The notes below the pieces were generated by a model. It had not been told where the DNA came from, did not search any database, and saw only the letters and a list, made by a program, of their open reading frames with translations. Below are positions 15,745-33,291 of a stretch of DNA of 64,000 nt, piece by piece; within the stretch, counting starts at the first letter, position 1, and each line of letters begins with the position of its first letter. This DNA comes from Qipengyuania xiamenensis (GTDB taxonomy: Bacteria; Pseudomonadota; Alphaproteobacteria; Sphingomonadales; Sphingomonadaceae), in assembly GCF_019711495.1 (NCBI RefSeq), contig NZ_JAIGNM010000003.1:1-64000 (forward strand), read 5' to 3'. The position numbers were made by a program, and so were the translations under genes.

Positions 15745-16072
15745 GGCTCCCCCCTTATCGCAATAGACAATTAACCACGTCTACGCCGCAGTGGCTGCAG
15801 AGTCCACAAGACAAGAAAACCGCGCGCTTTCAAGCGGGTCTCGTCGGTGCGAACGGACCTGCCGGCCTTCAGCTGGACACTGCCGTTTTCCGGGGTCGCC
15901 ACTTATCGGTACCGAGCGTAAATTCGAGAAACCGGAACGAGGCCCTGCAACGGCATCGGCCACGCGGCCAATCCAGATCAATCCGGCCAGAGCGCGAAAT
16001 TGCGAGGAATTGCGACGAGCCGTTGGAACCCGTTCCCAGTTTCCGGCGTATCTGTGCTACACCCCCCAAGTT

Positions 16073-16107
16073 GCGGTGCTGCGCGGAATGGCATTCCCTG
16101 CGAACAC
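16073..16107 (+). repeat. conserved 35-base leader element, copy 1
   Basis: These 35 bases recur exactly at 32142-32176 upstream of the second cyclophilin copy. They contain the near-palindrome ggaatggcattcc. They lie upstream of the coding region in both places, so they may belong to a structured 5' leader or small RNA rather than protein. Confidence 0.55.
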
Positions 16108-16115
16108 TGCATCAG

Positions 16116-16161
16116 AGCCCCTTCCCGCCCATCAAAACGCGCGTGAAGGGGCTTTTCTTTT
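16116..16161 (+). terminator. terminator-like hairpin in the cyclophilin leader
   Basis: agccccttc (16116-16124) pairs perfectly with gaaggggct (16145-16153), followed by tttctttt. It reads in the plus direction, while the nearest upstream gene runs the other way. It would therefore end a short leader or small RNA started near 16050, or act as an attenuator for the cyclophilin gene 27 bases downstream. Confidence 0.55.
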
Positions 16162-16188
16162 GCGTGGGCGGTGGCAAGTTGCGCCCCC

Positions 16189-17226: not shown

Positions 17227-17540
17227 GCGAGAGCCTTGCCTGCACCCTTCCCTTGACGCGCTGGCAGGGGGATCGCGGGACCTATCACCTCGTCACGATT
17301 AGCGTTGAAATCGCCGAGGCCATTGCGGCACACGCACTGATGCACAGGCTCGAATTCGGCACGCAGCGTGGCTTCGGTTCGGTCAAGGTCATGGCCGAGA
17401 TAGGCACCTCGCGTTGGAAGACCTCGGTCTTCCCGCAGAACGGCAAGACCGAATGGGTCTTATTGATATCGAAGAAGGTGATGTCCGCCGAAGGCCTTGC
17501 CGAAGGTGACAGCGTCCCGCTCGAGCTCGATTTGCTCTAG
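17223..17540 (+). CDS. DUF1905 domain protein, copy 1
   Basis: Protein of 105 residues. The pattern GTYHLVTISVE, GFGSVKVMAEIG, TSVFPQNGKTEWVLLISKKV matches the DUF1905 beta-barrel, often found in proteins related to YdeI; function is not known. GTG start overlapping the cyclophilin stop (GTGA), so translation is probably coupled. It differs from the copy at 33288 by only a few bases, giving Ser/Pro and Asp/Glu changes. It converges with an integrase/VOC remnant. Confidence 0.8.
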   Translation: MSESLACTLPLTRWQGDRGTYHLVTISVEIAEAIAAHALMHRLEFGTQRGFGSVKVMAEIGTSRWKTSVFPQNGKTEWVLLISKKVMSAEGLAEGDSVPLELDLL

Positions 17541-18048: not shown

Positions 18049-20571
18049 TTGGACCGGTTCTACCTCATGCCCGGCATGCTGGCTGCGCTGGCAGCTGCAA
18101 TCCTACATCTCTCGGGCCTCTTCCAATCGACCGATGGCGGCGTCTTCGACAGACTATCAGTCCGCGGCACGGCCGAGGAGCCTGCAGTCACGCTGATCAG
18201 GCTCAACGATGAAGTGAGCGCAAACGCACTGGTGCGGGCAAGTCTCGCGCTCGGCGCCGAGCGTGTCGTTTTCCTGTCCGATCCCGGCTCCGACCTCGAC
18301 CGCCTCGCTCCTGGCGAACGCGAGCGCACGGTGATCGGCTTTCCGGCACCGCGCCTGTCCGGCCGCCTGCCATCCGAACTGCTTGCAGCGGCACGGCGCC
18401 AAAAAGGCGAACTCGTACGCACACCCATCGCCCGCCCGGTCGCCGAATACGGTATCCACCGCTCGCAAAATGCCTGGATCGAAAGCGAGGAGGGCGAGGT
18501 CGCACTGCTCGAGCCGGTGGCCGCAGGCCGTGAGCCGAGCAGGCGCACATACTACATCCCCATGCCGCGCTCGCTCTCCTTCGCTCAGCTTTCGTCCGAC
18601 CAGCTGGTCAGCGCCGATTTCGTTGAAGGCGATCTTGAAGGCATGACTGTCATTGTCGCGCGTCCGGAAGAACTCTCCGGCAACCTGCTGACGACCCCCA
18701 TCAGCCCCAACCTTGCAGCAGTATCTCGGGCACAGTTTGCCGCCTACGCCGTCCAGGCACTGGCGGCAGGCCGCGAGGCGACCAAACCCGGCAATCTTGC
18801 CGCAGTCCTGCTTATCCTGTTTGCCGCGATGCTGAGCGCACTTGCCGCGATTCTGCTGAGGAAACGGCATATCTCGGCCGCAATTGCGCTCTCGCTTTGT
18901 GTTTTCGCAGGTATTGCAGGCTGGATCATGCTCGAGGCGGCGGGTGTCATCCTGCCCTTCGGCGCAATCTGGACTGCTGTGGCGCTGGCATGGCTCGGGA
19001 CGATCATGTTCCTAGAGCGTCGCAAGGACAGCAAGCTGGAAAGCTCCGTGGTAGGCGCGATCGAGCAGACCATCTCACACACGGCCTTTTCGAACCGGGA
19101 CAACCTTCCCGCGCTTCTCGTCGCAACGGCGGAGATGGTGGGCATCGAGCGCATGCTGCTGGTGCGCACTGCCGATCCCCTCTCGCCTAATCCGCCGGCC
19201 ACCTTCAACGCCGAAATCTCCGACTTCGCTGGCGACGTTCAGGGCGAGCTCGCAAGGCTGGCCTCGCGCCTGGCTGAAGGAAGGTCGCTACCGGTGCGTG
19301 GCCTGCTCTCCGACTGGCCCGGGCAAGTCCGTCTGCGTGCGATCGGATACGAGGACAAGCCGCTCTATTGGCTCTACACTTTCGGTGACAGTCCCGATGC
19401 CGAACTTGGCGAATACATCGCCGCAAATCTCGCCCAAAGCTTTGTGACGATGCAGAAGTTGCACGCGAGCCTGTCCGCCCAGCAACGCGGCCGCCGTGCG
19501 GTGGACCCGGTCGATTTCCGCGTCGTCAGCGCGATTGGGCTGATCTCGCGCAACAGCCGCCAGCTGCGCAAGGCGATCGACCAGCTCAATTCCTCGGTCA
19601 TGGCATTCGATGTGGTCGGCTTCCCTCTGCATGCGAGCCCGCAGATGGTCGATTTGCTGGAAGCTTCGGGCATGAACCCGCACACCGCGCTGCTTTCCGA
19701 AATCATCGAGAACCTCACCGAATTGACCAAGGGACAAGTCGAGGCGCTGCTGCGCGATATTCTGCGCGAAGGCGGCGAGGCTTCGGCCCCGATGCGGCAG
19801 ATCGCAGGCGTCAGCGCCACGCTGAGAGTATCGTGTCCCGACCCGGCGCGGGCGTCACACGAAAGCATCGTCGTGCTCGAAGCCTTCGACACCTCTGACC
19901 TCGCACGGCTTTACGACCTGCGCGGTGCGATCACGGATTTCATCGACGTCCAGATGCGCAACGATCTCGAGACGATCGCGCTTGCCGCTGCGCTGGCCAA
20001 GAAAGCCGTCGGCGACAAGAAGCGCGGCAAACGCATGATCGAGCGGATCGTGGCGGCATCGCAGGCCGCGACCGACCGGCTCAACGCGATGAACGACCTT
20101 GCGCGCAACCAGCCGGTCTCACGCGATGACATGCCCCACCCCATCCAGTTGAGGTCGATTGCCGAAAACGTCGGAGAAAGGCTCGCCGATTTCGCGGGTC
20201 GCTACGATGTGCAACTGGATTTCGAACTGCCGGCAGTCTCCGGCTATTCGGTCGGCGACCCGTTGATCCTGGCGCGCATGTTCGAGGCGCTGCTGAGGCT
20301 CGTCATTACCGACAGCCCGCAACACAGCGCGGTGACTTTCTCGCTGGCCGAAGACGAGTTACGCTCGGCTATCGAGATCAGCGGCGGCTTCGGCATGGAC
20401 CGCGCGCGGCTCCGCCAAGCGATCGCGAACCCGCCGCGCCACGACATTCCCGAGTTCCTGATCGTGAGCGAAAGCGCGCGCACCCTGTCCAGCTGGGGCG
20501 GCGAATTCGCTTACGATAGTGAAACCGGCAAGGGGTATACCTTCCAGCTTAGCTTGAGGCGGATTGCATGA
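18049..20571 (+). CDS. CHASE2 sensor protein with degenerate kinase-like module
   Basis: Membrane sensor of 840 residues from a TTG start; ATG 18067 is the alternative. A short N-terminal hydrophobic segment (residues 7-22) is followed by an extracytoplasmic CHASE2-like domain (VTLIRLNDEV, LALGAERVVFLSDPG), then three hydrophobic segments (about 240-325). The cytoplasmic half has a GAF-like part and a C-terminal two-helix plus ATPase-like module, but no phosphoacceptor His motif or clear N and G boxes, so kinase activity is doubtful. Stop overlaps the receiver gene (ATGA). It heads the CapC/CapB-like operon and probably senses an envelope cue to control it. Confidence 0.65.
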   Translation: MDRFYLMPGMLAALAAAILHLSGLFQSTDGGVFDRLSVRGTAEEPAVTLIRLNDEVSANALVRASLALGAERVVFLSDPGSDLDRLAPGERERTVIGFPAPRLSGRLPSELLAAARRQKGELVRTPIARPVAEYGIHRSQNAWIESEEGEVALLEPVAAGREPSRRTYYIPMPRSLSFAQLSSDQLVSADFVEGDLEGMTVIVARPEELSGNLLTTPISPNLAAVSRAQFAAYAVQALAAGREATKPGNLAAVLLILFAAMLSALAAILLRKRHISAAIALSLCVFAGIAGWIMLEAAGVILPFGAIWTAVALAWLGTIMFLERRKDSKLESSVVGAIEQTISHTAFSNRDNLPALLVATAEMVGIERMLLVRTADPLSPNPPATFNAEISDFAGDVQGELARLASRLAEGRSLPVRGLLSDWPGQVRLRAIGYEDKPLYWLYTFGDSPDAELGEYIAANLAQSFVTMQKLHASLSAQQRGRRAVDPVDFRVVSAIGLISRNSRQLRKAIDQLNSSVMAFDVVGFPLHASPQMVDLLEASGMNPHTALLSEIIENLTELTKGQVEALLRDILREGGEASAPMRQIAGVSATLRVSCPDPARASHESIVVLEAFDTSDLARLYDLRGAITDFIDVQMRNDLETIALAAALAKKAVGDKKRGKRMIERIVAASQAATDRLNAMNDLARNQPVSRDDMPHPIQLRSIAENVGERLADFAGRYDVQLDFELPAVSGYSVGDPLILARMFEALLRLVITDSPQHSAVTFSLAEDELRSAIEISGGFGMDRARLRQAIANPPRHDIPEFLIVSESARTLSSWGGEFAYDSETGKGYTFQLSLRRIA

Positions 20572-20954
20572 CGACCAAGGCCATCCTGATAGTCGACGAC
20601 GATGAACTGCGCTGCGAACTGCTGGCGGAACTGCTGCGGGACGAAGGCTACGCCGTGCGGATCGCAAATGACGGTGTCGACGGGCTCGACGAGCTGGAGC
20701 GCGAGGCAACCGATATCGTTCTGCTCGACATCATCATGCCGCGCATGGACGGTATCCGCTTCTTGCAGGTCCTACCGCAGCGGATCGAGAACCCGCCTCC
20801 CGTGCTCGTGATTTCCGGATCGATGGATTCGGTGGGCGGCAAGACGCTGGAGGAAATGAACGTCGCCGGGACTGTCCGCAAACCGGTCGACCCGGCAACC
20901 TTGATCGAAACCATCGAGACGGCGCTTTCGCAAGGCGCAGTTTCGAGCGACTGA
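20568..20954 (+). CDS. single-domain response regulator receiver
   Basis: CheY-like receiver of 128 residues with no output domain. Acidic cluster IVDDDE near residue 10, phospho-acceptor Asp in VLLDIIMP near residue 53, Ser in LVISGSMD and the conserved Lys in TVRKPVD are all present, so it should be phosphorylated. Coupled by ATGA to the CHASE2 gene and followed after 19 bases by the CapC-like gene. With no output domain it would act by protein contact, either on the CHASE2 protein, the polymer genes or as a relay for the hybrid kinase at 30291. Confidence 0.88.
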   Translation: MTTKAILIVDDDELRCELLAELLRDEGYAVRIANDGVDGLDELEREATDIVLLDIIMPRMDGIRFLQVLPQRIENPPPVLVISGSMDSVGGKTLEEMNVAGTVRKPVDPATLIETIETALSQGAVSSD

Positions 20955-20973
20955 CCGGACAGGCGCACGAACG

Positions 20974-23514
20974 ATGACGATCCCCATATTCCCCGAAGGT
21001 GGGCTTGCCAGCTCGGTGATCACCACCGTCTGGGTGGGCGTGTTCGTCGTCTGCTTCTTCAACCTTCGCTTCGGCTGGGTCCTCTCCGGCCTCGTCGTGC
21101 CCGGCTACCTCGTGCCGCTCGTGATCCTTAAGCCGCTCGCAGCGGGCGTTATCATTCTCGAGGCCGTGATCACCTATCTGATCGTCTACGCCTTCTCGGA
21201 AAAGCTGGGCCGGGGGCGATGGCACAGCGTCTTCGGGCGCGACCGCTTCGTTGCGCTGGTCATCGCTAGTATCGCGGTGCGCCTCACGATGGACGGATGG
21301 CTGCTGCCGCTCTTTGCAGATTGGCTCGGCGACCGCGTCGGGCAATTTGACTGGCGCAATAACCTGCAGAGCCTGGGCCTCGTGATCGTCTCACTGCTGG
21401 CGAACCAGTTCTGGAAGCCTGGCCTAATGCGCGGGCTTTTTGCGGCGCTGGTGACCACCGGGATAACCTATATTATCGTACGCTTCGGCCTGATGGAATT
21501 CACGAACTTCCGGATCAGCGGGATTTCCTACCTCTACGAAGGGCTCGCCAGCTCGATCCTCGCCAGCCCCAAGGCCTATATTATCCTGACCATTACCGCG
21601 ATGCTCGCGAGCCGGATGAACCTCAGGTACGGGTGGGATTTCTCGGGCGTGCTCATCCCTGCCCTGATCGCCCTCCAGTGGTACCAGCCGAGCAAGATCC
21701 TCACCTCGTTCATCGAGGCGGGCGTGATCTATTCGATAGCCAGCCTGGTGCTGCGCACGCCGATCTTCGCCAACACGACGATCGAGGGCGCGCGCAAGAT
21801 CCTGCTCTTCTTCAACATTGCCTTCATCTACAAGCTGCTGCTGGGCTATGCGGTCGTGGCCTTCTCGATCGACATCAAGATGACCGACCTGTTCGGTTTC
21901 GGCTACCTTCTGTCCACGCTCATCGCGATCAAGGCGCACGACAAGAATATCTTCCCGCGCCTCCTGCGTTCGACCTTGCAGGTCTCTCTGGTTGGCGCGG
22001 CGCTGGGCAATATCGCGGGTTTCGTGCTTTCGGCTGCCGTGCCCGGCGCGGCACGCGGCTTCAGCGAGCTGACGAGCCCCACGGCAGAAAAGCGCGGCCG
22101 CTACGCTGCCCTCGCGCTGGCCGCGGCGACAGGCGATGCGCATTTGCGCGATATCCGCGGAACCGGCGCGGAGCTTGCCGCCGGCGATGCTGGCGAACTC
22201 GGCCGGCTGATCGCGCTGGCAGAGGCCAATGCTGGATCCTCGTTCCTGCGCGAAACATACGACGCAGCGGGCTGGACCATGCGTGCGCTGAGCGATGACC
22301 GCCTTCTGATCCAGCGAGCAGACGGTTTCGGGCGCGATTCTCTAGTTTTCTACAGCATGGCCGAGAACGACATTTCCGTGATCGTGCCCGATCCGGCCGC
22401 CGCGCCGGGCCTAGCCATGACAGCGCTCGCACTGCGCGAGCAGCAGGATGCGCGCTGGGTCGTTATCGGATCGCCGCTCGGTCCGACCGGTCGCGCCGAA
22501 CGCAGCCTCGTGTCGGCTTTCGCCAATGCCAGCTCGACGAGGCCGGTGGTGCTGATCGCGGGCGAGAATGACGAGGGCCCGGGACAGCTGACCCTCGCCG
22601 GTCGGGCCGCCGCCGCGCTCGACCTGATAGCCCTCCGCATGGCCCTGCCCGGCATCGATGTGGATTTCGGTGCGCCGCCAGCGAGCTATGCGGAGCTTGT
22701 CGCGAGCGACGCGGTCACACTGGCCCTGCGCCCGGCGGGCGTGAATGCCCTGCTCGCCTCCGACCAGCCGCAGATCGGCGCGCCGGAAGCATGTATTGTC
22801 GAACCTGTTACGACTGAAGAGGACATCCTCCTCGTCGAGCTCGCCTATTTGCGTTTCGAGGTTTTCGAGCCGCTGCTCGCCGCGCTCGACCGGGGGGAGC
22901 GCCCCGACCTCGCAATCGCCAATGCCGACCTGCTCGATTTCAAGCTCGAACGCTGCGCGATGGACGACACGCCCGTATGGAAGCTCGCCGCCGCCGACGG
23001 GAGCAGCGGGACCTTCTTCATCGCGGAGGATGCGGGTAACGATTTCGTCCTTCAGGCCAATGCAGGCCAGTCGACGACAGTCGCGATCGGCAGGTCGCTG
23101 CTGGCAAGGTCCGGCGCTGCAGCACTTCTCGTTGCGCCCGGTGTCGGCAGCACGTCGGACAGCCAGCGCAGCAGCTTCGGAGTCGCTACCGAGGTGCTGC
23201 TGCGCGCTTCTGATAGCGAAACCGGAGCCAGGCTGGCCCAATTGCGCGAAGCACGTGGCAAGGATGCCATGATGCCGGACGGCGCGTCGATTGTGATCGC
23301 GCCGGATGTTTTCTCCGGCGATGGCTCGTCGGCCGAACCCTTCGTAGCCCTTGCCCGTGCTGCCGGCCTTACGCCTGCCGTTTCGGACCGCTCGCGCCGC
23401 CTGTCCGCCTTCGAGGCCGGGCGCAATCGCAGCCTTCGCGCGCTCGACCTCGTCGAAGGCGGTCGATACGCCATCTTCTGGACACCGGACCCGTCAAAGG
23501 AGGCGTTACGGTGA
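20974..23514 (+). CDS. CapC/PgsC-like membrane protein, duplicated and fused
   Basis: Protein of 846 residues. The first 360 form a polytopic membrane region with two similar units: NLRFGWVLSGLVVPGYLVPL near residue 30 and NLRYGWDFSGVLIPALIAL near residue 220, each followed by helices. This resembles CapC/PgsC, the membrane partner of poly-gamma-glutamate synthase, normally a single unit of about 150 residues. Residues 370-846 are a soluble alpha/beta region with no recognised motif. The ATG has only a weak ribosome site. The stop overlaps the next gene by GTGA. It probably forms the export and assembly channel for the ligase product. Confidence 0.65.
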   Translation: MTIPIFPEGGLASSVITTVWVGVFVVCFFNLRFGWVLSGLVVPGYLVPLVILKPLAAGVIILEAVITYLIVYAFSEKLGRGRWHSVFGRDRFVALVIASIAVRLTMDGWLLPLFADWLGDRVGQFDWRNNLQSLGLVIVSLLANQFWKPGLMRGLFAALVTTGITYIIVRFGLMEFTNFRISGISYLYEGLASSILASPKAYIILTITAMLASRMNLRYGWDFSGVLIPALIALQWYQPSKILTSFIEAGVIYSIASLVLRTPIFANTTIEGARKILLFFNIAFIYKLLLGYAVVAFSIDIKMTDLFGFGYLLSTLIAIKAHDKNIFPRLLRSTLQVSLVGAALGNIAGFVLSAAVPGAARGFSELTSPTAEKRGRYAALALAAATGDAHLRDIRGTGAELAAGDAGELGRLIALAEANAGSSFLRETYDAAGWTMRALSDDRLLIQRADGFGRDSLVFYSMAENDISVIVPDPAAAPGLAMTALALREQQDARWVVIGSPLGPTGRAERSLVSAFANASSTRPVVLIAGENDEGPGQLTLAGRAAAALDLIALRMALPGIDVDFGAPPASYAELVASDAVTLALRPAGVNALLASDQPQIGAPEACIVEPVTTEEDILLVELAYLRFEVFEPLLAALDRGERPDLAIANADLLDFKLERCAMDDTPVWKLAAADGSSGTFFIAEDAGNDFVLQANAGQSTTVAIGRSLLARSGAAALLVAPGVGSTSDSQRSSFGVATEVLLRASDSETGARLAQLREARGKDAMMPDGASIVIAPDVFSGDGSSAEPFVALARAAGLTPAVSDRSRRLSAFEAGRNRSLRALDLVEGGRYAIFWTPDPSKEALR

Positions 23515-24311
23515 CGCTCAGCCTCACCCAGATTGGACGGATCGTTATCGCCATCCTGCTGCTTCCTGCAGCGGGCCTCTTCGTTGCGTCGAACGACCGG
23601 CTGAGCGCAGGCGCGGCGAGCCTACTTGGCGTCGTCGGGGTCAACCGTGTCGACGATGCGCGCCGCACGATGGTCTACCGGCTCGATCCCGAACGCGGAA
23701 CCGTCTTCACCTTCAGCGGAGAACGCCAGCAGATCAGGCTCCTCTCCTCGGTCGGGATCGCGGCGGATGCGCCCACCGATACCCAAGGATGGATCTACGG
23801 CTTCCGCATCTCCTTCCTCTCCGGCACCGGAAACATTCTCGGCGAATACGACATCTATTCACAGGCGATGCTCCCCGAGATGATGGAGGAAGATAGCCCA
23901 TTGCGGTTCCTGCGCACCTCGGACGAGAGGATCAGCACCCTTGACGAAACCTTCGTCGAGGCTCCAGCAGGAACGGCGCGAGTATCGATCGTGGCGCTCG
24001 ATGCGGATGAAGGTGTGACTGGCATCGACATCCGTGTCTACGAACGCCAGCCGCTCACCGATGCGGGCGCGATGGTCGCCTTCCTGCGGCGCAGTCCCGG
24101 AGAGCAGCGACAGCTTGTGAGCGGATCAGCTTTTCCACCCGACACGCTCAACGAAAACGAAACGCGGACAATTGCCCGCAAGAGCTGGCGCCCGATCGGT
24201 CCGGGCGGCATTGCCGGAGAAGCCTACGATCTCGTGGTGGTCTACGAGGTCGACCCCGAATATGACGAGCCACAGGAAGAAGTCGAAGCGGAGGCGCCGG
24301 TCACGCCATGA
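23511..24311 (+). CDS. membrane-anchored exported protein of the CapBC locus
   Basis: Protein of 266 residues, family not recognised. One N-terminal hydrophobic segment (IVIAILLLPAAGLFVAS) should anchor or export it; the rest reads as beta-rich (TVFTFSGERQQIRLLSS, WIYGFRISFLSGTGNILGEYDIY). The C-terminus is acidic (EEVEAEAP). GTG start with GGAGG seven bases upstream, overlapping the CapC-like stop; its own stop overlaps the next ATG. It fits the position of a periplasmic accessory factor, comparable to the small CapA/CapE-type partners, but no homology to those is visible. Confidence 0.6.
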   Translation: MTLSLTQIGRIVIAILLLPAAGLFVASNDRLSAGAASLLGVVGVNRVDDARRTMVYRLDPERGTVFTFSGERQQIRLLSSVGIAADAPTDTQGWIYGFRISFLSGTGNILGEYDIYSQAMLPEMMEEDSPLRFLRTSDERISTLDETFVEAPAGTARVSIVALDADEGVTGIDIRVYERQPLTDAGAMVAFLRRSPGEQRQLVSGSAFPPDTLNENETRTIARKSWRPIGPGGIAGEAYDLVVVYEVDPEYDEPQEEVEAEAPVTP

Positions 24312-25189
24312 CGGTGATATCGCGCCCTCGTGCCGTGCTCGCAAGCATCATGATCATTTCCGCAGCCCTTGCCGCCCTCTATTTCGAGCCGCTCTCGCGG
24401 GCGATCGCCATCGCCAATCCCGATGCCGATGCCACGCACGAGGCGCGCATCGAGTTCGCCCGCGCCATCGAGGCACCACGCTCGGAAGACTGGCACGAAG
24501 CGGTGCGCAAACAGGGCCTTGAGCCATCGATTATCGACGACCCGATCCCCGCCACCCGCATCGAGGAAATCGACGATGATTGCGTGGGGCGCGGGTCCTA
24601 CCTGCTCTCGCATGACGAAGGCGTGCGCCCGCTCCTGATCTCCGCCCCACATCGCGGCTTTGACCGGCACACAGGCACGCTCGCGCTGCAGCTCGTCGGC
24701 GAAGGGGGGCTCGCCGCAGGGGCTTGGAATTCAGCGCCGCGAAAGGCACGCGAGGATTGCCGAAATGCAGCAGATCTTGCGCGAAGCCCGCTCAACCATT
24801 TCACTGCTTTCTCGCTCGCCTTTTCGGACAGCTATCCTGCCGGTCGCATCGTTCAGCTTCACGGGTTCGACCGAAGCGTGCGCCAGTCGCAGGCAGGCGC
24901 CGAGGCCGACGTAATCCTGAGCAACGGCACGGAAAATGCTAGCGAGATCCTGCTCGACATTGCCGATTGCATGAGCGCAACCTTCGCCCGCCGCAACGTG
25001 CTCGTCTATCCCAACGACGTCCGCGAGCTGGGCGCCCTAACCAACGCACAAGGACAGGCACTGCGCGAAGACGGTTTCGGCAGTTTCGTGCACGTCGAAC
25101 TCTCGCTCTCCCTGCGGCGCGAACTCGTCGGTGATCCCGAAACGCGGCGAGCGTTTCTCGGGTGCCTATCGATCGGTATCATCGGGTGA
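24308..25189 (+). CDS. exported gamma-glutamyl hydrolase-like metalloprotein
   Basis: Protein of 293 residues with an N-terminal signal or anchor (VLASIMIISAALAALYF). The pattern LLISAPHRGFDRHTGTLALQL, later GRIVQLHGFD and then GSFVHVELSLSLRREL places His, Asp/Glu, His and a late Glu as in zinc-dependent N-formylglutamate amidohydrolases and phage PghP-type poly-gamma-glutamate hydrolases. It may trim or release the polymer made by the neighbouring ligase. Start by ATGA overlap; the end overlaps the CapB-like start. The activity is inferred from motif order and context; no close family could be named. Confidence 0.5.
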   Translation: MTVISRPRAVLASIMIISAALAALYFEPLSRAIAIANPDADATHEARIEFARAIEAPRSEDWHEAVRKQGLEPSIIDDPIPATRIEEIDDDCVGRGSYLLSHDEGVRPLLISAPHRGFDRHTGTLALQLVGEGGLAAGAWNSAPRKAREDCRNAADLARSPLNHFTAFSLAFSDSYPAGRIVQLHGFDRSVRQSQAGAEADVILSNGTENASEILLDIADCMSATFARRNVLVYPNDVRELGALTNAQGQALREDGFGSFVHVELSLSLRRELVGDPETRRAFLGCLSIGIIG

Positions 25190-28100
25190 GAGAGATCGAG
25201 CGCCTCTACCGGCAGGGACTCGTTGCGAGCACCAACCCCATGCGCGCCCGCCTTGATGCGGACCTAATGGAGGCGCTGGAGGCGTACGGAAACCGCCACG
25301 GATCGGAAGCCGAGAGCCCGGGTGAGCTCATCGCGATCCCGGCTGGCTTTGCCTCCGAACAGCTCGACCGTCTCGCGCAATTGCAGCAGGCGCGGCAGGC
25401 CTTTGCCGTGCGCTACGACAAGGCGCTCGACGATCGCGAAAGAAACGCTGCGATATTGCAGTTCGCCGAAGTGATGGGGGCCACCGGGTCGCAGGCCCGC
25501 TCCGATGCGCGCTTTGTCGGCGAGCCCTTCGATATCGACGCAGTTCTCGAGCGTTTCCGCAGGCGGCGCGGCCAGTGTGAGCGAGCGCTCAGTTTCGCCG
25601 CTGAACGGCTGGCGGCGATGGCCACCAGCGTTCAGTCGCATATGGAGATGGCCGACTGGCACCTAGCCCTCTCCACCCATGCCGCGCCTGCACTCGAGCG
25701 GTTGCGTGCCTATGACGGCGATCCGCGCGTACGCGCTGCGGCCTATCGCTGCCTTGCTCGCCTCGGTCAGGCGGCCGAGCATGCACGCGATAATTTCTGG
25801 ATCGACGCCTCGCTCCGCGATGTTCGGCGTGCCTCGCTGGACAATACCGAAGATTGCTGGGTCCAGTGCGAAGCGCTAGAGGCGCTCTTCAGGCTCGACC
25901 CCAAATCGGTCGACGGGATCCTCGAGCGCCGTCTAGCGGCCCCGAGTACTAACGGCACCACGTTGGTCGACAACAACCGCATATTCGTCCGCCGCAGGAT
26001 CGCCTTCCTGCTGGCGACCCACCTTGCCGAAAACCGACAGCTGGAAGCGCATCACGCCCGAATCTCGGGGGACGAGGATGGCGCTGTCAGGCAGGCCGTA
26101 GCCGAGAGCCTTCCGCTAATGCCGCGCGAGATTGCACGCAGCAGCGCAAGCCTGCTGGTCAAGGACCTCGACGCGCAGGTCAGGGCAACCTTGTTGGCGC
26201 GCGTCGGGCTGCTTGCCCCCACGCTCGGCGGACAGGAAACGCTCGATCTCATCCTCGAGCTGCTCGACGATGATGACGACGAATTCGTCACCCGCTGCGC
26301 AATCGCGGCGAGCGGCGAGTTCATCGACTGGGCCATTGCCGGCGGCGAGCCCGAGACGCGCGACTGGGCGAAGTCGCTTCGACGTCAGCTCGGAAATATC
26401 CGCCAGTCCGAGGCCAAGCCGCGTGTACGCCGCTGGGCGGGCGAGGCTAGCGAGAGGATTTGGCTCGCCTGCAGCGAGGAAAGCCGCGAAGTCGCCACCA
26501 TCCTGCTCGACGCGGCGCACCGGACAAGCGAGGGCAAGTCAACCCGCCTTCCCGAGATCGCGACATTCCTCAGCGAGAACGAAGCGCTGGTCGGGCGCGT
26601 CATGGCAGTGCTCGCGCAGCAAGATTTCGGCCTTTCGCTGAGCAACGGAAAGGTCCCGCGCCTGACCCGCGGGGAAGTATTCGAGCGGCGTGTCTGGCGC
26701 ACCCTTTACGAGCTGAAACAGGGTGCGACCGACAAGCGGCAGGCGTTCTACCACACCATCGGACGCGTCTTCCGGGGCACGGTCATCGCTCCGTCCGCGC
26801 TTCTTGCCGAACTCGCGCCGACCGCCGTTCCGGGCGAACCGCTGCACATCGCGTCGGACGGTGGTTGGCGCAATTACATCCCCCTGCCCGACCTTACTCT
26901 TTCGGTCGTCGACCAGGGCGAAGGGGCACGCATTTACACCAGCGAGGGCATCACCACGCTGTCCCCGCCCAAGGCGTTGAAAGAGCGCTTCAAGATCTGG
27001 TGGCAGATCACGCGCAATTTCGCCGAGCTGGCGGAACTCAGGAACACCGACCCGCGTGCATATGTCGAACGGCTGACCAAGCTTGGCCTCGCCATCGAGC
27101 ACCAGCCTTACCCCGAAAAGAAGGGCGATAGGGTCGGACCGGCGCAGGACCCGGGCGTCACTCGGCTGTTCGATGTCGCAGGCGTGATCATGGTCATCCC
27201 GCTCCTGTGGGACGAGGTCGCTACGTATGTCGCGACTGTCTACGAGAACTCGCTTGTCGAGCTCGCAATTTTCCTGCTGATCCTCGCGCTCTATTTCTTC
27301 GGGCGGCACGTTTGGAAGGCCTACCGCGTCCGGCAGTACCGGCGCAGCATTGCACTCTCGCTCGGTGGCTGGGGCACTCGCGGCAAATCCGGCACCGAAC
27401 GATTGAAAGCGGCGCTTATGAACTCGCTCGGCGCACCGCTAGTCTCCAAGACAACCGGCTGCGAGGCGATGTTCCTGCTGGGCGAGCCCTATGGCGATCT
27501 CACCGAGCTGTTCCTGTTCCGCCCCTATGACAAGGCGACCATCTGGGAGCAGGCCGACCTGCTTGCGATCGCCGAGGGCGTGGGTGCGCGGACCTTCCTG
27601 TGGGAATGCATGGCGCTCAATCCCAGCTTCGTGAAAATCCTCCAGCGCGACTGGATGAAGGACGATATCGCCACCATCACCAATACATTCCCCGATCACG
27701 AGGACGTACAGGGTCCGGCGGGCCGCAACGTGGCCGAGGTCATATGCGAGTTCGTGCCGGAAGATTCGATCATCGTGACCTCCGAGGAAGAGATGCTTCC
27801 ACTGCTGGAGGCGCGCGCGCAGAGCTTCGGCACGCTGGTCAGAATCGTGGGCTGGCGCGATGCGGGCCTGCTGCACAAGCGCCTGCTCGATCGCTTCCCC
27901 TATTCCGAACATCCCAACAACATCGCGCTGGTCAATTCCATGGGCCGCGAGCTCGGCCTCGACCGGGATTACTGCATTAAGGAAATGGCCGACCGCGTGG
28001 TGGCTGACCTCGGCGTTCTCAAGGTCTATCCGAAGGCCGAAGTCGACGGCGCGACGCTCGAATTCGTAATGGGCATGTCTGCGAACGAGCGCTTCGGCGC

Positions 28101-29352
28101 GATGGGCAATTGGACGCGGATGGGCTTTGCCGACCACGATCTCTCGAGCGATCCGGGCGTGTTCGTGACCACGGTTGTCAACAACCGCGCCGACCGCGTG
28201 CCGCGTTCACGCGTATTCGCGAGCATGATTGTCAACGACATTAGCGCCGACCGGCATTTCCTCATCGGATCGAACATCGAAGGCCTGCTCGATTTCATCC
28301 ACCAAGAATGGGACGACTACGCCGCCTCGATCGACCTCGCCGCTGCCGAGGGTGGAACAGAAGAGGCATTCGATGCGCTAATGAAGCGGCATCGCATCCC
28401 GCGTTCGCGCAAGGAAATCGAGTGGCTCCTCACCGCCATGCTCATCGAGCAGGGCGAACACTACACCGCAGCCTATATCGCAGCATGGCGGAAGGGCGAA
28501 CTGGACACTGCGCTCACAGAAAACCTCGCGCCCGACATCGCTGCGCGGATGTCCGCGCATATCGCTTTGCTCGACCAGCGGCTCGAGACCTGCCTTGCGC
28601 TCCGCGGCATGCTCGACGGGGACCTCGATGTGCTGCACGCGAGGCTTGGCGAGGTACTGCGTGAACGTTTCCTCACCAGCCTGGTGCCGGTGCGCGACTA
28701 TTACACCAAAGGCGATACGCTCGTGCGCCAGATCGCGCGCGAGACGCCGCCGGGGCTCCACAATCGGATCATGGGCCTGCAGAACATCAAGGGCACCGGG
28801 CTTGACTTCGTCTACACATGGCAGGCCTGGGACGCGGTCCATGCAGCCTGCGAGGCTCTGGTGGGAGACGACCCGGGAGCCGTCGAGGCAGGTCTCCAGA
28901 CGCTTTCCGGCTTCCATGAATTCAATGCGCTTGCCGAAGCGAAAGTCCGCGCGACCGTCGCCGAGGTCGAGACACGCGGGACCATAACCGATGCGAGCGC
29001 CGCGCGCTCGCTTGCCGCGATTGTCGAGCGGATGGACGAGCAGCTCAGCCGCCGGAAGGCCGATTTCGAAAACCGCCCCGACCAAGAGGAGACCAAGAAG
29101 GCTCGCTCGATCGCTTCGTGGCTCACCGATTTCAGCGAGGGCTTCCTCGATGCGAGCGACGCCATCCGCAGGCGCAAGGCGGCTGAGCGAGTATATCGCG
29201 CGGTCATGGCCGAGCAGATCAGCAGTGCGCGCGCCGCGCTCGAGCTCAAGCGCCTGACGATAAGACAGAAAGGTGGCTGGCTGAGCGGTTGGCTGACCGA
29301 AACGAGCAATCGCCTGCGCGACCTGCCGGCACGATTTACCCGCAAGGGCTAG
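25186..29352 (+). CDS. giant CapB/PgsB-like amide ligase with HEAT-type N-terminus
   Basis: Protein of 1388 residues, about three times the length of PgsB. Residues 150-480 are helical HEAT-like repeats (RAAAYRCLARLG, AVRQAVAESLPLM, QVRATLLARVGLL). About 660-710 contain two membrane segments. The Mur-ligase-type domain begins near residue 725 with the P-loop GGWGTRGKSGTERLK, as in PgsB, followed by TTGCEAMF, TNTFPDHEDV and NNRADRVPRS. The last 350 residues are helical. Start at GTG 25186 (GTGA overlap with the upstream stop); GTG 25162 is possible. It should activate a carboxylate with ATP and form amide bonds, perhaps gamma-glutamyl, at the inner membrane. Confidence 0.7.
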   Translation: MREIERLYRQGLVASTNPMRARLDADLMEALEAYGNRHGSEAESPGELIAIPAGFASEQLDRLAQLQQARQAFAVRYDKALDDRERNAAILQFAEVMGATGSQARSDARFVGEPFDIDAVLERFRRRRGQCERALSFAAERLAAMATSVQSHMEMADWHLALSTHAAPALERLRAYDGDPRVRAAAYRCLARLGQAAEHARDNFWIDASLRDVRRASLDNTEDCWVQCEALEALFRLDPKSVDGILERRLAAPSTNGTTLVDNNRIFVRRRIAFLLATHLAENRQLEAHHARISGDEDGAVRQAVAESLPLMPREIARSSASLLVKDLDAQVRATLLARVGLLAPTLGGQETLDLILELLDDDDDEFVTRCAIAASGEFIDWAIAGGEPETRDWAKSLRRQLGNIRQSEAKPRVRRWAGEASERIWLACSEESREVATILLDAAHRTSEGKSTRLPEIATFLSENEALVGRVMAVLAQQDFGLSLSNGKVPRLTRGEVFERRVWRTLYELKQGATDKRQAFYHTIGRVFRGTVIAPSALLAELAPTAVPGEPLHIASDGGWRNYIPLPDLTLSVVDQGEGARIYTSEGITTLSPPKALKERFKIWWQITRNFAELAELRNTDPRAYVERLTKLGLAIEHQPYPEKKGDRVGPAQDPGVTRLFDVAGVIMVIPLLWDEVATYVATVYENSLVELAIFLLILALYFFGRHVWKAYRVRQYRRSIALSLGGWGTRGKSGTERLKAALMNSLGAPLVSKTTGCEAMFLLGEPYGDLTELFLFRPYDKATIWEQADLLAIAEGVGARTFLWECMALNPSFVKILQRDWMKDDIATITNTFPDHEDVQGPAGRNVAEVICEFVPEDSIIVTSEEEMLPLLEARAQSFGTLVRIVGWRDAGLLHKRLLDRFPYSEHPNNIALVNSMGRELGLDRDYCIKEMADRVVADLGVLKVYPKAEVDGATLEFVMGMSANERFGAMGNWTRMGFADHDLSSDPGVFVTTVVNNRADRVPRSRVFASMIVNDISADRHFLIGSNIEGLLDFIHQEWDDYAASIDLAAAEGGTEEAFDALMKRHRIPRSRKEIEWLLTAMLIEQGEHYTAAYIAAWRKGELDTALTENLAPDIAARMSAHIALLDQRLETCLALRGMLDGDLDVLHARLGEVLRERFLTSLVPVRDYYTKGDTLVRQIARETPPGLHNRIMGLQNIKGTGLDFVYTWQAWDAVHAACEALVGDDPGAVEAGLQTLSGFHEFNALAEAKVRATVAEVETRGTITDASAARSLAAIVERMDEQLSRRKADFENRPDQEETKKARSIASWLTDFSEGFLDASDAIRRRKAAERVYRAVMAEQISSARAALELKRLTIRQKGGWLSGWLTETSNRLRDLPARFTRKG

Positions 29353-29361
29353 GTCCCGGCC

Positions 29362-30255
29362 CTAGAAGCGGTAGCCGACCTCGAGCGAGAGGCGCGGCGT
29401 ACTGCCATCGAAGCGCTCGTCGTTGCTCGTGCGCATTTCGTATCCCGCACGAGCGCGCCCGAAGATCCCGGTCGCACGCCCGTAATCGACGCCGATTTGC
29501 GGCGTGATCGCATTGTCCTGCCGCGTCGCACCCGTGGCGTCGCCGCGAGCGATACGGCCGGGGAACTTCCATGTACGAATGTCGACGCTGGCGCGGCCGC
29601 GGAACATGCGGCTGACGGGGCGGCTGTATTCGATCGAACCCGAGATGCGGTTGTAGTCGCGCTCATCGTCGGTGCTGTCGATCTTGTCGGCAAAGCCACC
29701 TACGCGCAACCAGTGGTAGGAGCCGAGACGGCGATTGTAATGCCCCCCGAAGCGCGTGCCCGTCCCATCGGTCGGGACAAGCTGATCGTATTGCCGCTTG
29801 CGATATTCGCCATAGGCTAGGAAGCGGTTGTCGTCGGCTTCCCATTTCACCTGCGCTCGGGCGCGCTGTTGGTCGGCAGACAGGGCTTCGACGAAGACGA
29901 GATTCTGCGAATAGACACCGCGCAGCGAGATCTCGAAAAACTCGCCGAAATCGCGCGCGATGCCCATCTCGCCCTGCAGAACTTGGCGGTTTTCGCGCTC
30001 CTCGTCCAGATACTGGAAGACGCCCGCCGAACCCTTGACCCAGAACCGCAGGATGCTGAAATCCTTTTCGCCGCGCAGCGACACATCCGCCCCGAAACCT
30101 GAGCTGTCGAACTCGTCATTCTGCAGGATGTCGCGCTTGGCGGCCACGCCGCGCGTCGAGACCGACCCTGTGAATTCGCTGTCGGCAATTGCTGGCTCGC
30201 TGGCGAGCAGATTCGCTGCGATGACCGGAAGGACTATGATGCGGGCGGCGTTCAA
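29362..30255 (-). CDS. outer-membrane beta-barrel protein
   Basis: Protein of 297 residues with a signal peptide (IIVLPVIAANLLASEPAIA) and alternating amphipathic strands rich in aromatic and charged residues, ending in the outer-membrane signature GYRF with terminal Phe. Family unknown. It converges on the CapB-like gene with nine bases between and lies 35 bases downstream of the hybrid kinase, so it may be co-transcribed with that kinase. A surface barrel would be a plausible exit route or anchor for a polymer, but this is inference from position. Confidence 0.72.
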   Translation of the reverse strand: MNAARIIVLPVIAANLLASEPAIADSEFTGSVSTRGVAAKRDILQNDEFDSSGFGADVSLRGEKDFSILRFWVKGSAGVFQYLDEERENRQVLQGEMGIARDFGEFFEISLRGVYSQNLVFVEALSADQQRARAQVKWEADDNRFLAYGEYRKRQYDQLVPTDGTGTRFGGHYNRRLGSYHWLRVGGFADKIDSTDDERDYNRISGSIEYSRPVSRMFRGRASVDIRTWKFPGRIARGDATGATRQDNAITPQIGVDYGRATGIFGRARAGYEMRTSNDERFDGSTPRLSLEVGYRF

Positions 30256-30290: not shown

Positions 30291-31985
30291 TCAGGCGCTC
30301 AGCAACACGCGCAGATTGTCCAATTGATCGACATCCACGCTCTCGGGCGATGTCCTCAAGTGGTCGTCCAGCTCGCTACAGCGCGTCCCGAGATCGGCCT
30401 CACCAAATAAGGAGGCGACACCGGCAATCTGGTGCAGCTGGCGGATCAGGTCTTCGAGCGAACAGCCGTCGAACTCTCCGGACGCCACGGCCTTGTCGAT
30501 GGCTATCAGCGCAAGCGCCTTCCGCTCGGCAAAACGGCGCGAAAGGCCGGCGCTCGGCTGCGCGGCCGGATTAGCGGTCGCCGCTGCTGGCGAGGCCTTA
30601 AGCCATGTGTCAAGAGCGGCGGCCAGTGTCTGGAGCTCGAGCGGTTTGGCAAGCGAGGCCTGCATTCCGGCATCACGGCTCTCCCCTGCGTATTCTGTAC
30701 CGACATCTGCGGAAAGCGCTAGGATCGGCAGCTTCTCGGCCCCGATCCCTGCCTCGCGAATGGCTTTTGCGGCCGTCAAGCCATCGATCATAGGAAGCCG
30801 GCGGTCCATCAATACGAGATCGAATGGCTCGCCTGCCTTCTCGGCGTGACGGACCTGCTCGATTGCCTGCTGGCCGTCTGCGACGATCTCGGCCTGATGA
30901 CCCATGTGGTGGAGCAGGCCGCGCGTGACCTGCTGGCTAACCGGATCGTCCTCGGCGACGAGAATGCGTGCGGCTTGCATCCTCGCGGGGGCGAAATCGA
31001 CCTGTGCGGCTTCGTGGTCCTCGCTTTCGGGCGCATCGGAAGCTGTCAGAGGTAGCGTGATGGTGAAGGTCGAGCCGACGCCCGGCTCGCTCTCAACCGA
31101 AATGGCCCCTCCGAGCAATTCGGCAAGCTGGGCGCTGATGGTCAGACCGAGACCGCTGCCACCGTAGTGGCGATCGGTGTCGTTCTCTGCCTGCGTGAAT
31201 TTCTCGAAAATCCGGTCGAGCTTGTCGGCGGCGATCCCGATGCCGGTATCAGTTACCGCAATGCAGACGGCCCTGCCCCCGTCCGCCACACGTGCGGTGA
31301 CGTCGATCCTGCCGCTATGCGTGAACTTCACGGCATTGCCGACGAGGTTTAGCATGATCTGACGCAGGCGCGTGGGGTCGCTTTCGATCCTCTTTGGTAC
31401 CCTGTCGTCGACTGCCAGTTCGAGGGTCAGCCCCTTGCGCGCCGCGACCGGCATCATCATCGTGAGTGCAGCGCCGAGCTTTTGGCGCAGGTCGAAGCTT
31501 TCGGACACTACGTGGATTTGCCCCGCCTCGATCCGCGCAAAGTCGATCAGCTCGTTCAGCAGCGCGAGCATGGCGCGACCGGAATCGGCCAGCATTTCCA
31601 GACTGCCGCGTTCCTGCCCGTCGAGATTGCCTGCAAGCAGCACCTCGGTAAAGCCGATCACCCCGTTCATCAGTGTGCGGATTTCGTGGCTCATGTCGGC
31701 GAGGAACGATGCATTCGTCTCGACTGCGGCATCGGCGTGCGCACGTTCCGCAGCAATCTCCAGCGCCGCACGGCGTGTTTGCTCGGACAGCCAGAAGATC
31801 AGTGAGCCGACGACTACGGCCTGCGCGATCCAGAACGCCGTCATCCATTCGCTGCCCTGCAGGAAATGGGATAGGGCGAAGGCCGAGAGCCCATAGATCG
31901 CACCCGTAAAAACGGCAGCAGCAACGCTTCGGGAAACGGCATAGCCGCCCGGGAAAAGTCGCTGAATAAGTGCACCCGTCTTCAT
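30291..31985 (-). CDS. hybrid histidine kinase with receiver and Hpt-like tail
   Basis: Membrane histidine kinase of 564 residues. Two hydrophobic segments (about 18-35 and 50-70) with almost no periplasmic loop, then HisKA with MSHEIRTLMNGVIGF, HATPase with NLVGNAVKFT, DTGIGI and GGSGLGLTI, a receiver with phospho-Asp in LMDRRLP and Lys in SLAKPLE, and a C-terminal Hpt-like helix with RQLHQIAGVASLFG. All relay residues are present. ATG at 31985 has GAGG upstream. Lying next to the CapBC locus, it could phosphorylate the lone receiver at 20568. Its upstream region abuts the second cyclophilin repeat. Confidence 0.9.
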   Translation of the reverse strand: MKTGALIQRLFPGGYAVSRSVAAAVFTGAIYGLSAFALSHFLQGSEWMTAFWIAQAVVVGSLIFWLSEQTRRAALEIAAERAHADAAVETNASFLADMSHEIRTLMNGVIGFTEVLLAGNLDGQERGSLEMLADSGRAMLALLNELIDFARIEAGQIHVVSESFDLRQKLGAALTMMMPVAARKGLTLELAVDDRVPKRIESDPTRLRQIMLNLVGNAVKFTHSGRIDVTARVADGGRAVCIAVTDTGIGIAADKLDRIFEKFTQAENDTDRHYGGSGLGLTISAQLAELLGGAISVESEPGVGSTFTITLPLTASDAPESEDHEAAQVDFAPARMQAARILVAEDDPVSQQVTRGLLHHMGHQAEIVADGQQAIEQVRHAEKAGEPFDLVLMDRRLPMIDGLTAAKAIREAGIGAEKLPILALSADVGTEYAGESRDAGMQASLAKPLELQTLAAALDTWLKASPAAATANPAAQPSAGLSRRFAERKALALIAIDKAVASGEFDGCSLEDLIRQLHQIAGVASLFGEADLGTRCSELDDHLRTSPESVDVDQLDNLRVLLSA

Positions 31986-32253
31986 ATCCTCACTCACATG
32001 GCAGGATATGGTTAACAATCTGATAGTGGCCGTTACGCCCGGAGAGCGCGCCGCCATCGGTGATCCCCAAAGGGCGTTTGCGACGAACCGAGGGAACCGG
32101 CTACGCAAGGTCGGCGTAACTATGTTAAGCCTGCAGAAGTCGCGGTGCTGCGCGGAATGGCATTCCCTGCGAACACAGCTACAGAGCCCCTTCCCGCCCT
32201 TCAAAACGCGCGGGAGGGGGGCTTCGGGTAAAGCGCTGGCAGTGTCTCCGCCC

Positions 32254-33291
32254 ATAACCAAAAATCTACATCCGCTAGCCACTGTGATGGCTCTTGCCGC
32301 CCCTCTCGCCGCCCAGAATGAAGGCGAAGTTGCGGCCGGCCCAAACCAGATCGTCGAGCAGGCCGATGATGTTGAATGGATACCGATAGTGCCGGAGCAC
32401 CTGCTCGTCATGAAGCTCACGCCAGACGCCGAGGGCAACGAGCGCGAGTTCGTGATCCAGCTGCTGCCCGCGCCCTTTAGCGAGGTATGGACCGAAAACT
32501 TACGGATCTCCGCACGCACAGGATGGTACGATGACATCACCGTCAACCGCGTACAGGACAGTTACGTAGTACAGTGGGGCGATGCTAACTACGAAAATCC
32601 GGAAGCCGAAGGGGAACCGAAGAAACTTCCAGCCGGTCTCGGAAAGACGGACGATAACAACTACGCGGTATCTTTCGAGGACGCGGATCAGCAACTCGTC
32701 GATAGGCGCCAATTCCGTATCTTCTGGGAAAATTTTCGTGAGGCGAACGGGCTTTCGATCAATGACGTCCATCGTTCGTCACATGACGACCGGCCAAAGT
32801 TCAGCGACGTTGCCTATGCGCGCGCCTGAGCCTTCCATGAAGGCAGGCCCTACGCGACCGACCTCAAGGAGGCCTGGCCGATCCATTGCTACGGCATGGT
32901 AGGCATGGGGCGTAACTATTCCCCCAATGCGGGAACCGGATCGGAACTTTACACAGTCATCGGCCATGCGCCGCGCCACCTCGACCGCAATATCGCGCTG
33001 GTGGGACGGATCGTCGAAGGCATCGAGCACCTTTCCAGCCTTCCGCGCGGCAAGGGTGTGCTTGGTTTTTACGAGGATGAGAGCCGTCGCACCCCGATCC
33101 TGACGGTTCGTGTGGCAAGCGACCTGCCCGCGGCCGAACAGCCGCTATTCGAGTATCTCGACAGCGGGAGCAAGACTTTCGCTCGGTATGCAGAAGCGCG
33201 CGCCAACCGCCGTGATCCGTTCTTCAACGTGCCTGCTGGCGCAGCCGATGTCTGCAGCGTGACCGTGCCCATCCGCCGCGTGGCGGAGTGA
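32254..33291 (+). pseudogene. cyclophilin pseudogene, paralogue of the gene at 16189
   Basis: Same length in bases (1038) as the intact copy, but the position of the start codon reads ATA and an in-frame TGA occurs at 32827-32829, codon 192. Before the stop it keeps GWYDDITVNRVQDSYVVQWG; after it, CYGMVGMGRNYSPNAGTG and the C-terminal half continue in the same frame. A GTG at 32242 could still start translation but would give a protein lacking the second half of the fold. The 3' tracts are almost identical to copy 1. The terminator-like leader hairpin is also lost. Confidence 0.82.

Follow-up and report, generated by a model that had tools for sequence, protein, structure and literature searches.

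The closest described systems are the PgsBCA/CapBCA loci, in which a PgsB ligase with a Mur-ligase-type core and its motifs is accompanied by the membrane partner CapC. To our knowledge, the passage of a gamma-glutamyl capsule polymer across the two membranes of a Gram-negative cell is an open question. A locus of this kind in Qipengyuania xiamenensis lies in the window, meaning the whole 64,000-nt stretch of contig NZ_JAIGNM010000003.1 that was analysed (genome 2.8 Mb). Six plus-strand open reading frames (ORFs; 18049-29352) encode a sensor, a receiver, a CapC-like protein, two exported proteins and a ligase, and a seventh converges on them from the minus strand (Table 1). All seven, the two exported proteins among them, were found in the ORF list where an earlier model's reading of the letters alone (the sequence-only reading) had put them.

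The locus probably encodes a machine that makes a gamma-glutamyl-type polyamide, in the simplest case poly-gamma-glutamate (gamma-PGA), and exports it across the whole Gram-negative envelope, with a hydrolase of its own. This reading builds on the computed ligase and CapC families, the predicted fold of exported protein 2, the pseudokinase, the intact receiver and the conserved gene order, from which we infer the identity of the polymer, its export route and its control. The PgsB core and the CapC partner are shared with PgsBCA/CapBCA, but here PgsB carries a HEAT domain, a helical insertion and a tail, CapC is doubled and extended, the operon includes a sensor, usually a receiver, and a hydrolase-fold gene, and there are periplasmic and outer-membrane parts. 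A canonical pgsBC locus from the same order, Sphingomonadales (L109, 7858-10825), has the two families in common with the window, but its PgsB is 402 amino acids (aa) long, its CapC is single and short, and its third protein (384 aa) is probably PgsW; it has no match to the sensor, the exported proteins or the giant periplasmic protein of the relatives. Judged by its sequence, L109 is an instance of the canonical PgsB/CapC kind within Pseudomonadota. In a 2026 paper, a Cloacimonadota CapB-CapC-CapA operon is given a typical Gram-positive organisation (PMC13082233). No description of the present gene set was found in the titles and abstract starts of the open-licence PMC literature, a scope that leaves subscription papers and most preprints aside, and an earlier description is possible.

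Relatives were collected by a contig scan of one genome per species (84,980 species) with the C-terminal part of the ligase, which yielded 204 stretches, 199 of them confirmed; neighbourhood counts use the best 80 of the 199. Alignments comprised 30 ligases (27 for the model), 29 copies of exported protein 2 (35 for the model), 24 sensors, 22 CapC proteins, 22 copies of exported protein 1 and 17 giant proteins. The order sensor, receiver, CapC, exported 1, exported 2, ligase is kept in every Sphingomonadales locus that covers the full run of genes (27 of 27, window included); two further loci (L013, L021) are cut by the contig and stand outside the 27. The order also recurs in other classes and phyla, there with another outer-membrane part; the locus is not a chance assembly.

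Four-base overlaps join the sensor to the receiver, CapC to exported protein 1, and exported protein 1 to exported protein 2. The overlap between exported protein 2 and the ligase is 4 bases if the ligase starts at the GTG at 25186 and 28 bases if it starts at the GTG at 25162, and a 19-base gap separates the receiver from CapC. An operon joined by four-base overlaps, as first read, is therefore right for three junctions and at most four of the five. Nine bases lie between the end of the barrel gene and the ligase gene. Scans of the locus found no promoters (2.0 in shuffles) and 6 terminators (9.7 in shuffles).

Table 1. Genes of the locus and the adjoining hybrid kinase, with positions in the window
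Feature	Position	Strand	Evidence
CHASE2-type membrane sensor with degenerate histidine-kinase core (predicted pseudokinase), 840 aa	18049..20571	+	CHASE2 and HATPase_c in relatives; kinase boxes lost
Lone receiver, phosphoacceptor Asp54 intact, 128 aa	20568..20954	+	PF00072, E 4.2e-24
Doubled CapC/PgsC membrane protein with long C-terminal half, 846 aa	20974..23514	+	PF14102 in two stretches
Membrane-anchored exported protein 1, 266 aa	23511..24311	+	Alignment, layouts, hydrophobic N-terminal segment seen by eye
Exported protein 2, predicted fold of gamma-PGA hydrolases/N-formylglutamate amidohydrolases, 293 aa	24308..25189	+	AF2, Foldseek, VIA
Ligase, 1396 aa (HEAT, middle domain, membrane segment 698-716, PgsB/Mur-ligase core with helical insertion, helical tail)	25162..29352	+	TIGR04012, HEAT_2, AF2, hydropathy
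Small predicted outer-membrane beta-barrel protein, converging, 297 aa	29362..30255	-	Weak PF13505, GYRF C-terminus, amphipathic strands
Hybrid histidine kinase (HisKA-HATPase-receiver-Hpt)	30291..32546	-	Pfam; true start probably inside the ORF

Ligase and CapC-like protein

The ligase matches the PgsB profile TIGR04012 over residues 705-1059 (E 4.4e-52, 177 bits). Because the NCBI cut-off for this equivalog is 222.7 bits, the protein does not count as a PgsB equivalog by the NCBI rule. Residues 495-1396, modelled with AF2 at a mean pLDDT of 79 (lower in parts of the middle domain), have a Mur-ligase fold: Foldseek neighbours are MurC (E 5.4e-8), cyanophycin synthetase and folylpolyglutamate synthase (FPGS), and VIA neighbours are MurE at the top (Z 19.5), FPGS (about 18) and cyanophycin synthetase (17.9). 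Profile and predicted fold both place the giant ligase in the PgsB/Mur-ligase family, where the sequence-only reading had seen a CapB-like enzyme. A phmmer search of the PDB with a single ligase half gave no match.

The P-loop motif GTRGKS is invariant in 30 of 30 aligned ligases, and KTTG, WECM, DHEDxQGP, EHPxNxALV and NRxDRxxRS are invariant or nearly so. The PgsB motifs of these ligases can be recognised by eye in the canonical 402-aa PgsB of the same order, and the same comparison puts the last strand and helix of the ligase (NIKGTGLDF) beyond a helical insert of about 150 residues. Identity to a canonical PgsB from another family of the order is 31% over residues 724-1045. A tblastn search with the ligase core hit nine plasmid records; identity was 24-29% and coverage at most 57%. 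Five of the nine matches fall on genes annotated pgsB.

The ligase has a HEAT_2 match (E 1e-7), and the profile of 30 ligases matches designed alphaRep and PP2A structures, in support of HEAT repeats. Averaged over the family, the hydropathy has a single clear hydrophobic stretch, residues 698-716, which directly precedes the P-loop; it does not peak anywhere before residue 674. In six of the 27 Sphingomonadales loci (L028, L029, L031, L032, L033, L036) two proteins, one with the HEAT part and one with the PgsB part, stand in place of the single ligase; the PgsB part begins with the hydrophobic stretch, and no signal peptide was seen on those HEAT-protein ends that were inspected. The hydropathy and these split ends suggest that the HEAT part is cytosolic, in which case a weaker stretch at about 664-690 would make a hairpin in the fused form. 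The middle domain, residues about 505-640 (26674-27081), has a strongly conserved KRQAFxHTIGRxFxG...PGEPL pattern and is partly poor in the AF2 model.

The CapC-like protein matches PF14102 in two stretches (E 1.5e-38, 132 bits for a cut-off of 27). It also matches the PgsC profile TIGR04011 in two stretches (E 4e-20), with 72.5 bits and below the cut-off of 96.45. The gene at 20974 thus belongs to the CapC/PgsC family in doubled form, and it stands in the operon beside a lone receiver, as had been read from the sequence; phmmer found no match for it in the PDB. The profile searches thus uphold the sequence-only reading for both genes, ligase and CapC, on whose family placement it could have been refuted. 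In other phyla and classes CapC is longer, about 1020-1095 aa. In these long proteins the profile of exported protein 2 aligns twice by hhalign, at 407-650 (P 1.7e-11) and 681-955 (P 1.7e-7); a repeat with other rows gave P 7.9e-12 and 1.4e-7, and controls with the ligase and the barrel gave 0.22 and 0.61. The long CapCs of other phyla seem, from these alignments, to carry two decayed hydrolase-like domains. Their metal site appears lost, because among 18 long CapCs the position of His115 is a histidine in none of the first copies and two of the second, and that of His185 in one of the first and none of the second. The short, window-type CapCs gave the expected order of matches without significance (hhalign, P 0.034 and 0.045), and dead hydrolase copies are therefore proposed for the long CapCs only.

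Exported proteins, sensor and outer-membrane parts

In alignments, exported protein 1 corresponds to the first third of a protein of about 830 aa from other phyla.

Exported protein 2 has an AF2 model with a pLDDT of 91. Its best VIA neighbour is 2odf (Atu2144; Z 13.8, 3.3 A over 184 residues), which we take to belong to the N-formylglutamate amidohydrolase family, and the second is the N-formylglutamate amidohydrolase 2q7s (Z 12.7, 3.0 A, 182 residues). The gamma-PGA hydrolases 5onj (Z 12.6, 3.5 A, 172 residues), 3a9l (12.3, 3.8 A, 179) and 21dc (11.8, 3.8 A, 180) complete the best five, and Foldseek lists 2q7s at 1.3e-4 and 3a9l at 2.2e-4. On the model, the protein is predicted to have the zinc-amidohydrolase superfamily fold and to be closest to its glutamate-related branch. 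The profile gave no credible PDB sequence, and since the Pfam search was equally barren, exported protein 2 is placed by its predicted fold only: it shares the fold of PghP, PghL/YndL and N-formylglutamate amidohydrolase without a credible match to their sequence families. The likeness to gamma-glutamyl hydrolases noticed in the sequence-only reading therefore holds for the predicted fold (Foldseek, VIA) and finds no backing in Pfam, the PDB sequences or profile comparison. Set against N-formylglutamate amidohydrolase loci, the profile of exported protein 2 reached P 0.011 across 18 columns; the method is insensitive here, as PF05908 and PF05013 loci, which have the same fold, give only P 0.031 with each other.

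His115, His185 and Glu264 are invariant in the family of exported protein 2, and Asp119 is present in 90% or more. We propose from the alignment that His115, Asp119 and His185 are candidate metal ligands and Glu264 a candidate base, in the same order as in the PghL site. According to PMC6506827, 5onj is PghL/YndL with gamma-PGA as substrate, its zinc ligands are His41, Glu46 and His102, and Glu165 is among the residues needed. A sequence-based survey of 2015 saw PghP-like genes accompany pgsB in just 13% of cases outside Bacillales (PMC4497714); a divergent hydrolase like exported protein 2 could escape such a survey. Three PF05013 (N-formylglutamate amidohydrolase) matches lie on contig C1 of the same genome.

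The sensor adjoins CapC in 45 of 47 CapC loci. Pfam finds CHASE2 in 10 of 24 aligned sensor relatives (best E 2.9e-16) and HATPase_c in 12, the window protein not being among them; the window sensor itself has no CHASE2 match. Members of the family share CHASE2, membrane helices and a HATPase_c-like end with CHASE2 sensor histidine kinases, but the phosphoacceptor and ATP-binding residues are lost in 24 of 24, as judged against the usual kinase motifs. The phosphoacceptor stretch reads about QLRNDLEAI and has no conserved histidine (a few sensors, L057 for one, have a single His close by). At the N box the usual Asn is replaced by Asp in 23 sensors and by Glu in one, and at the G1 box the usual Asp gives way to Asn in 14 and to other residues in 10. 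On these substitutions the sensor is a predicted CHASE2 pseudokinase; the CHASE2 sensor of the sequence-only reading is borne out by its relatives, not by a match in the window protein, and its kinase function appears to be gone. In contrast, the operon receivers keep Asp54 in 38 of 39, Ser/Thr83 in 38 of 39 and Lys105 in 39 of 39 (L019 was scored as lacking a receiver, though one is present, as its CapC ORF extends upstream). The pairing of a dead kinase with an intact receiver points to a sensor that works through binding and to a phosphate source elsewhere.

A hybrid kinase gene (30291-32546) lies 35 bases upstream of the barrel gene on the same strand; its Hpt match (23.4 bits) is just under the Pfam cut-off of 24.6. 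In 16 of 16 loci with a converging barrel gene, the next gene on the barrel strand has a receiver-type match; in 13 it lies no more than 60 bases from the barrel start as called, and in three it overlaps that start by 4 bases. Four relatives were scanned, of which three are receiver-Hpt proteins and one is a hybrid kinase without an Hpt match. Directly behind the ligase, L038 and L063 encode a hybrid kinase of the ordinary type that contains GAF and PAS domains.

The converging gene was read from the outset as an outer-membrane barrel, and its C-terminus and strand pattern agree. The Pfam match is weak (PF13505, E 0.0083, below the family cut-off). The terminal residue is F in 15 of 15 non-redundant members, window included, and GYRF is kept in 14; strand periodicity of the 15 has a mean z of 3.9 relative to shuffles (hydropathy scale with W and Y raised). 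Among the 27 Sphingomonadales loci, a barrel gene converges behind the ligase in 16 and lies before the sensor in three (19 of 27 in total); no barrel match was found in six fetched split-ligase stretches (L028, L029, L031, L032, L033, L036).

In most other relatives a giant periplasmic protein takes the place of the small barrel. Strand periodicity in 18 giants is 2.3 over the last 330 residues, 1.4 over residues 100-430, and 0.15 in the middle, against values below 0 for HEAT and Mur parts, and it is possible from this pattern that the end of the protein forms a barrel. Pfam gave only weak or single-member matches (OmpA and SPOR in one of 17, TPR_2 in two of 17), no PDB match was convincing, and a search without a positive control did not find the protein in the window's genome. 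The polysaccharide exporters BcsC, PgaA and AlgK/AlgE share the idea of an inner-membrane synthase with a large periplasmic protein that has a barrel-like end; here, however, the expected substrate is a polyamide, and the giant protein has no Pfam match to such exporters.

Distribution among bacteria

The best named relative by the C-terminal part of the ligase, among the best 80 of the 199 stretches, is from Qipengyuania xiapuensis (Erythrobacteraceae, 94%), and the ligase occurs in nine of 37 genomes of the genus, the window's genome included. CapC is present in 25 of 26 named carriers and has two copies in 24 of the 26. Among 52 kept loci outside Sphingomonadales, 37 have a giant-protein match upstream of the ligase on the same strand; in 11 of the 52 the locus opens only at the ligase gene, within it or 0.6 kb ahead of it, and four (L050, L057, L070, L072) have no giant-protein match. 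Upstream stretches from 18 genomes of other classes and phyla have the sensor, CapC (1021-1095 aa) and exported protein 1 in 18 of 18, with exported protein 1 of L106 cut by the stretch end and the sensor of L094 in two ORFs. A receiver stands between sensor and CapC in 12 of them. Exported protein 2 and the giant protein follow wherever these stretches reach, except in L105, which has no exported protein 2, and L106, where giant and ligase genes are divergent. The 18 genomes are labelled Alpha-, Beta-, Gamma- and Zetaproteobacteria, Desulfocapsa, Nitrospirae and Planctomycetes; most are metagenome-assembled, which leaves room for binning errors. The window's locus is thus one among many with a widespread gene set, mostly with the giant periplasmic protein instead of the small barrel, and the neighbourhood comparison called for by the sequence-only reading thus found the gene order kept in Sphingomonadales and recurring well beyond it.

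In an even sample of 398 Pseudomonadota genomes, seven have the giant ligase, the window's genome included. TIGR04012 matches 43 of the 398 at E 1e-3, and scores above 180 bits come only from these seven (open frames of 1109-1431 aa). The remaining matches reach at most 26.3 bits and are expected to be other Mur-type ligases. CapC is above its cut-off in six genomes, is doubled in all six, and all six are among the seven. As strong TIGR04012 and CapC matches coincide in giant-ligase genomes, the sampled PgsB/CapC pairs of the phylum are of the giant kind. No ligase in the 398 exceeds the NCBI PgsB cut-off, which suggests why annotation misses these enzymes.

Proposed function, alternatives and flanking genes

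The gene set names candidate parts for each step of export across two membranes. At the inner face the ligase would use ATP to activate the carboxylate of the chain and add the next amino acid, as its fold and motifs and the chemistry of PgsB and Mur ligases suggest. The doubled CapC, by analogy with PgsC, would move the chain across the inner membrane, with exported protein 1 as a putative periplasmic part. Exported protein 2, being zinc-amidohydrolase-like, may trim, release or clear the chain in the periplasm, where the decayed hydrolase copies of CapC may hold or guide it, and the exit through the outer membrane would be provided by the small barrel in this locus and by the giant periplasmic protein in others. 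Output may be set by the CHASE2 pseudokinase and the intact receiver, the latter probably acting on the cytosolic HEAT part of the ligase and receiving its phosphate from another kinase, for example the hybrid kinase adjoining the barrel gene. The gene set also provides a testable example of a biosynthetic operon in which a pseudokinase is teamed with an intact receiver, and another of a channel protein that seems to have put dead copies of an enzyme to new use. The carriers, among them marine, methanotrophic and symbiotic bacteria, point to a matrix polymer that may matter ecologically and possibly to industry.

A bolder proposal, which we hold tentatively and think somewhat doubtful as a whole, is that these loci form a separate trans-envelope polyamide class, the usual PgsB/CapC form in Pseudomonadota. 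Pseudokinase and receiver would gate polymerisation via a HEAT docking domain, CapC would guide the chain with two dead hydrolase domains beside the living one, and the polymer need not be plain gamma-PGA.

Several observations weigh against a gamma-glutamyl synthase-exporter. We know of no polymer from any carrier. PgsA/CapA (PF09587) has no match in the window's genome, and the same search was positive in seven of 14 control genomes. One published model treats CapA as accessory only (PMC5542703). For exported protein 2, Foldseek ranks the aspartoacylase-family 2qj8, the CCP5 deglutamylase and a putative metallopeptidase first (3e-5 to 7e-5), ahead of 2q7s and 3a9l, and in VIA the D,L-carboxypeptidase Csd4 and other carboxypeptidases follow from Z 10.9 down, tied (within 1) with 21dc; because of this order and this tie, the fold alone does not fix the substrate. 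Pfam at E<=1 gave no credible family for any of the 29 copies of exported protein 2 that were scanned, with PF05908 not among the matches, hhalign with five PF05908 loci was weak (probability 40%, P 3e-4), and the candidate zinc ligands would be His-Asp-His, against His-Glu-His in the hydrolases. The receiver is absent from six of the 18 upstream stretches outside Sphingomonadales, the link from receiver to HEAT part to hybrid kinase is conjecture, and one of the seven strong-ligase genomes (G271) has no CapC found. Descent of the small barrel from a detached end of the giant protein found no support either: hhalign detects no relationship between the two (probability 4.7%).

A rival reading has a product other than free gamma-PGA, either an amide polymer of another sort or a short gamma-glutamyl tag attached to an acceptor in the envelope, which the hydrolase-fold protein would process. 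In its favour, the ligase is far from canonical PgsB over the comparable region, falls below the PgsB cut-off in seven of seven sampled carriers, has the helical insertion, the tail and the strongly conserved middle domain, and counts cyanophycin synthetase and MurE among its fold neighbours; exported protein 2 is equally close to N-formylglutamate amidohydrolase and gamma-PGA hydrolase. We nevertheless regard such a product as unlikely, given that the PgsB motifs are kept, that CapC is kept and doubled, and that gamma-PGA hydrolases are three of the five best VIA folds. The sequence-only reading had entertained a different gamma-glutamyl or other amide polymer; the hydrolase fold favours its gamma-glutamyl chain, and nothing shows a difference from gamma-PGA.

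That the locus is degenerate or merely regulatory in Qipengyuania and its family, with polymer export lost, would fit the short CapC and the short exported protein 1 (266 aa, against about 830 aa elsewhere), as well as the giant protein that the search without a positive control did not find. This is very improbable, for the order is intact in all 27 Sphingomonadales loci, the ligase motifs are kept, and 19 of the loci have their own barrel gene. A canonical pgsBCA capsule locus of the ordinary sort, set among genes that have nothing to do with it, would account for the PgsB and CapC families, but it is refuted, as nearly as such a reading can be, by neighbours conserved across phyla and by the contrast with L109. 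A gamma-glutamyl synthase-exporter with its own hydrolase therefore remains the reading we prefer.

The whole locus is flanked by two copies of a cyclophilin-DUF1905 gene pair (16068-17540 and 32137-33605), about 16065 bases apart. The copies are 85, 80 and 92% alike in three ungapped blocks, and the right-hand cyclophilin has an internal stop. In the other 21 genomes of the genus with a match the pair seems to be single-copy, in four as two adjacent pieces, which suggests that the locus came in with the duplication or caused it. A TIR-domain protein with TPR repeats is encoded on the minus strand (13783-15744), about 2.3 kb before the operon.

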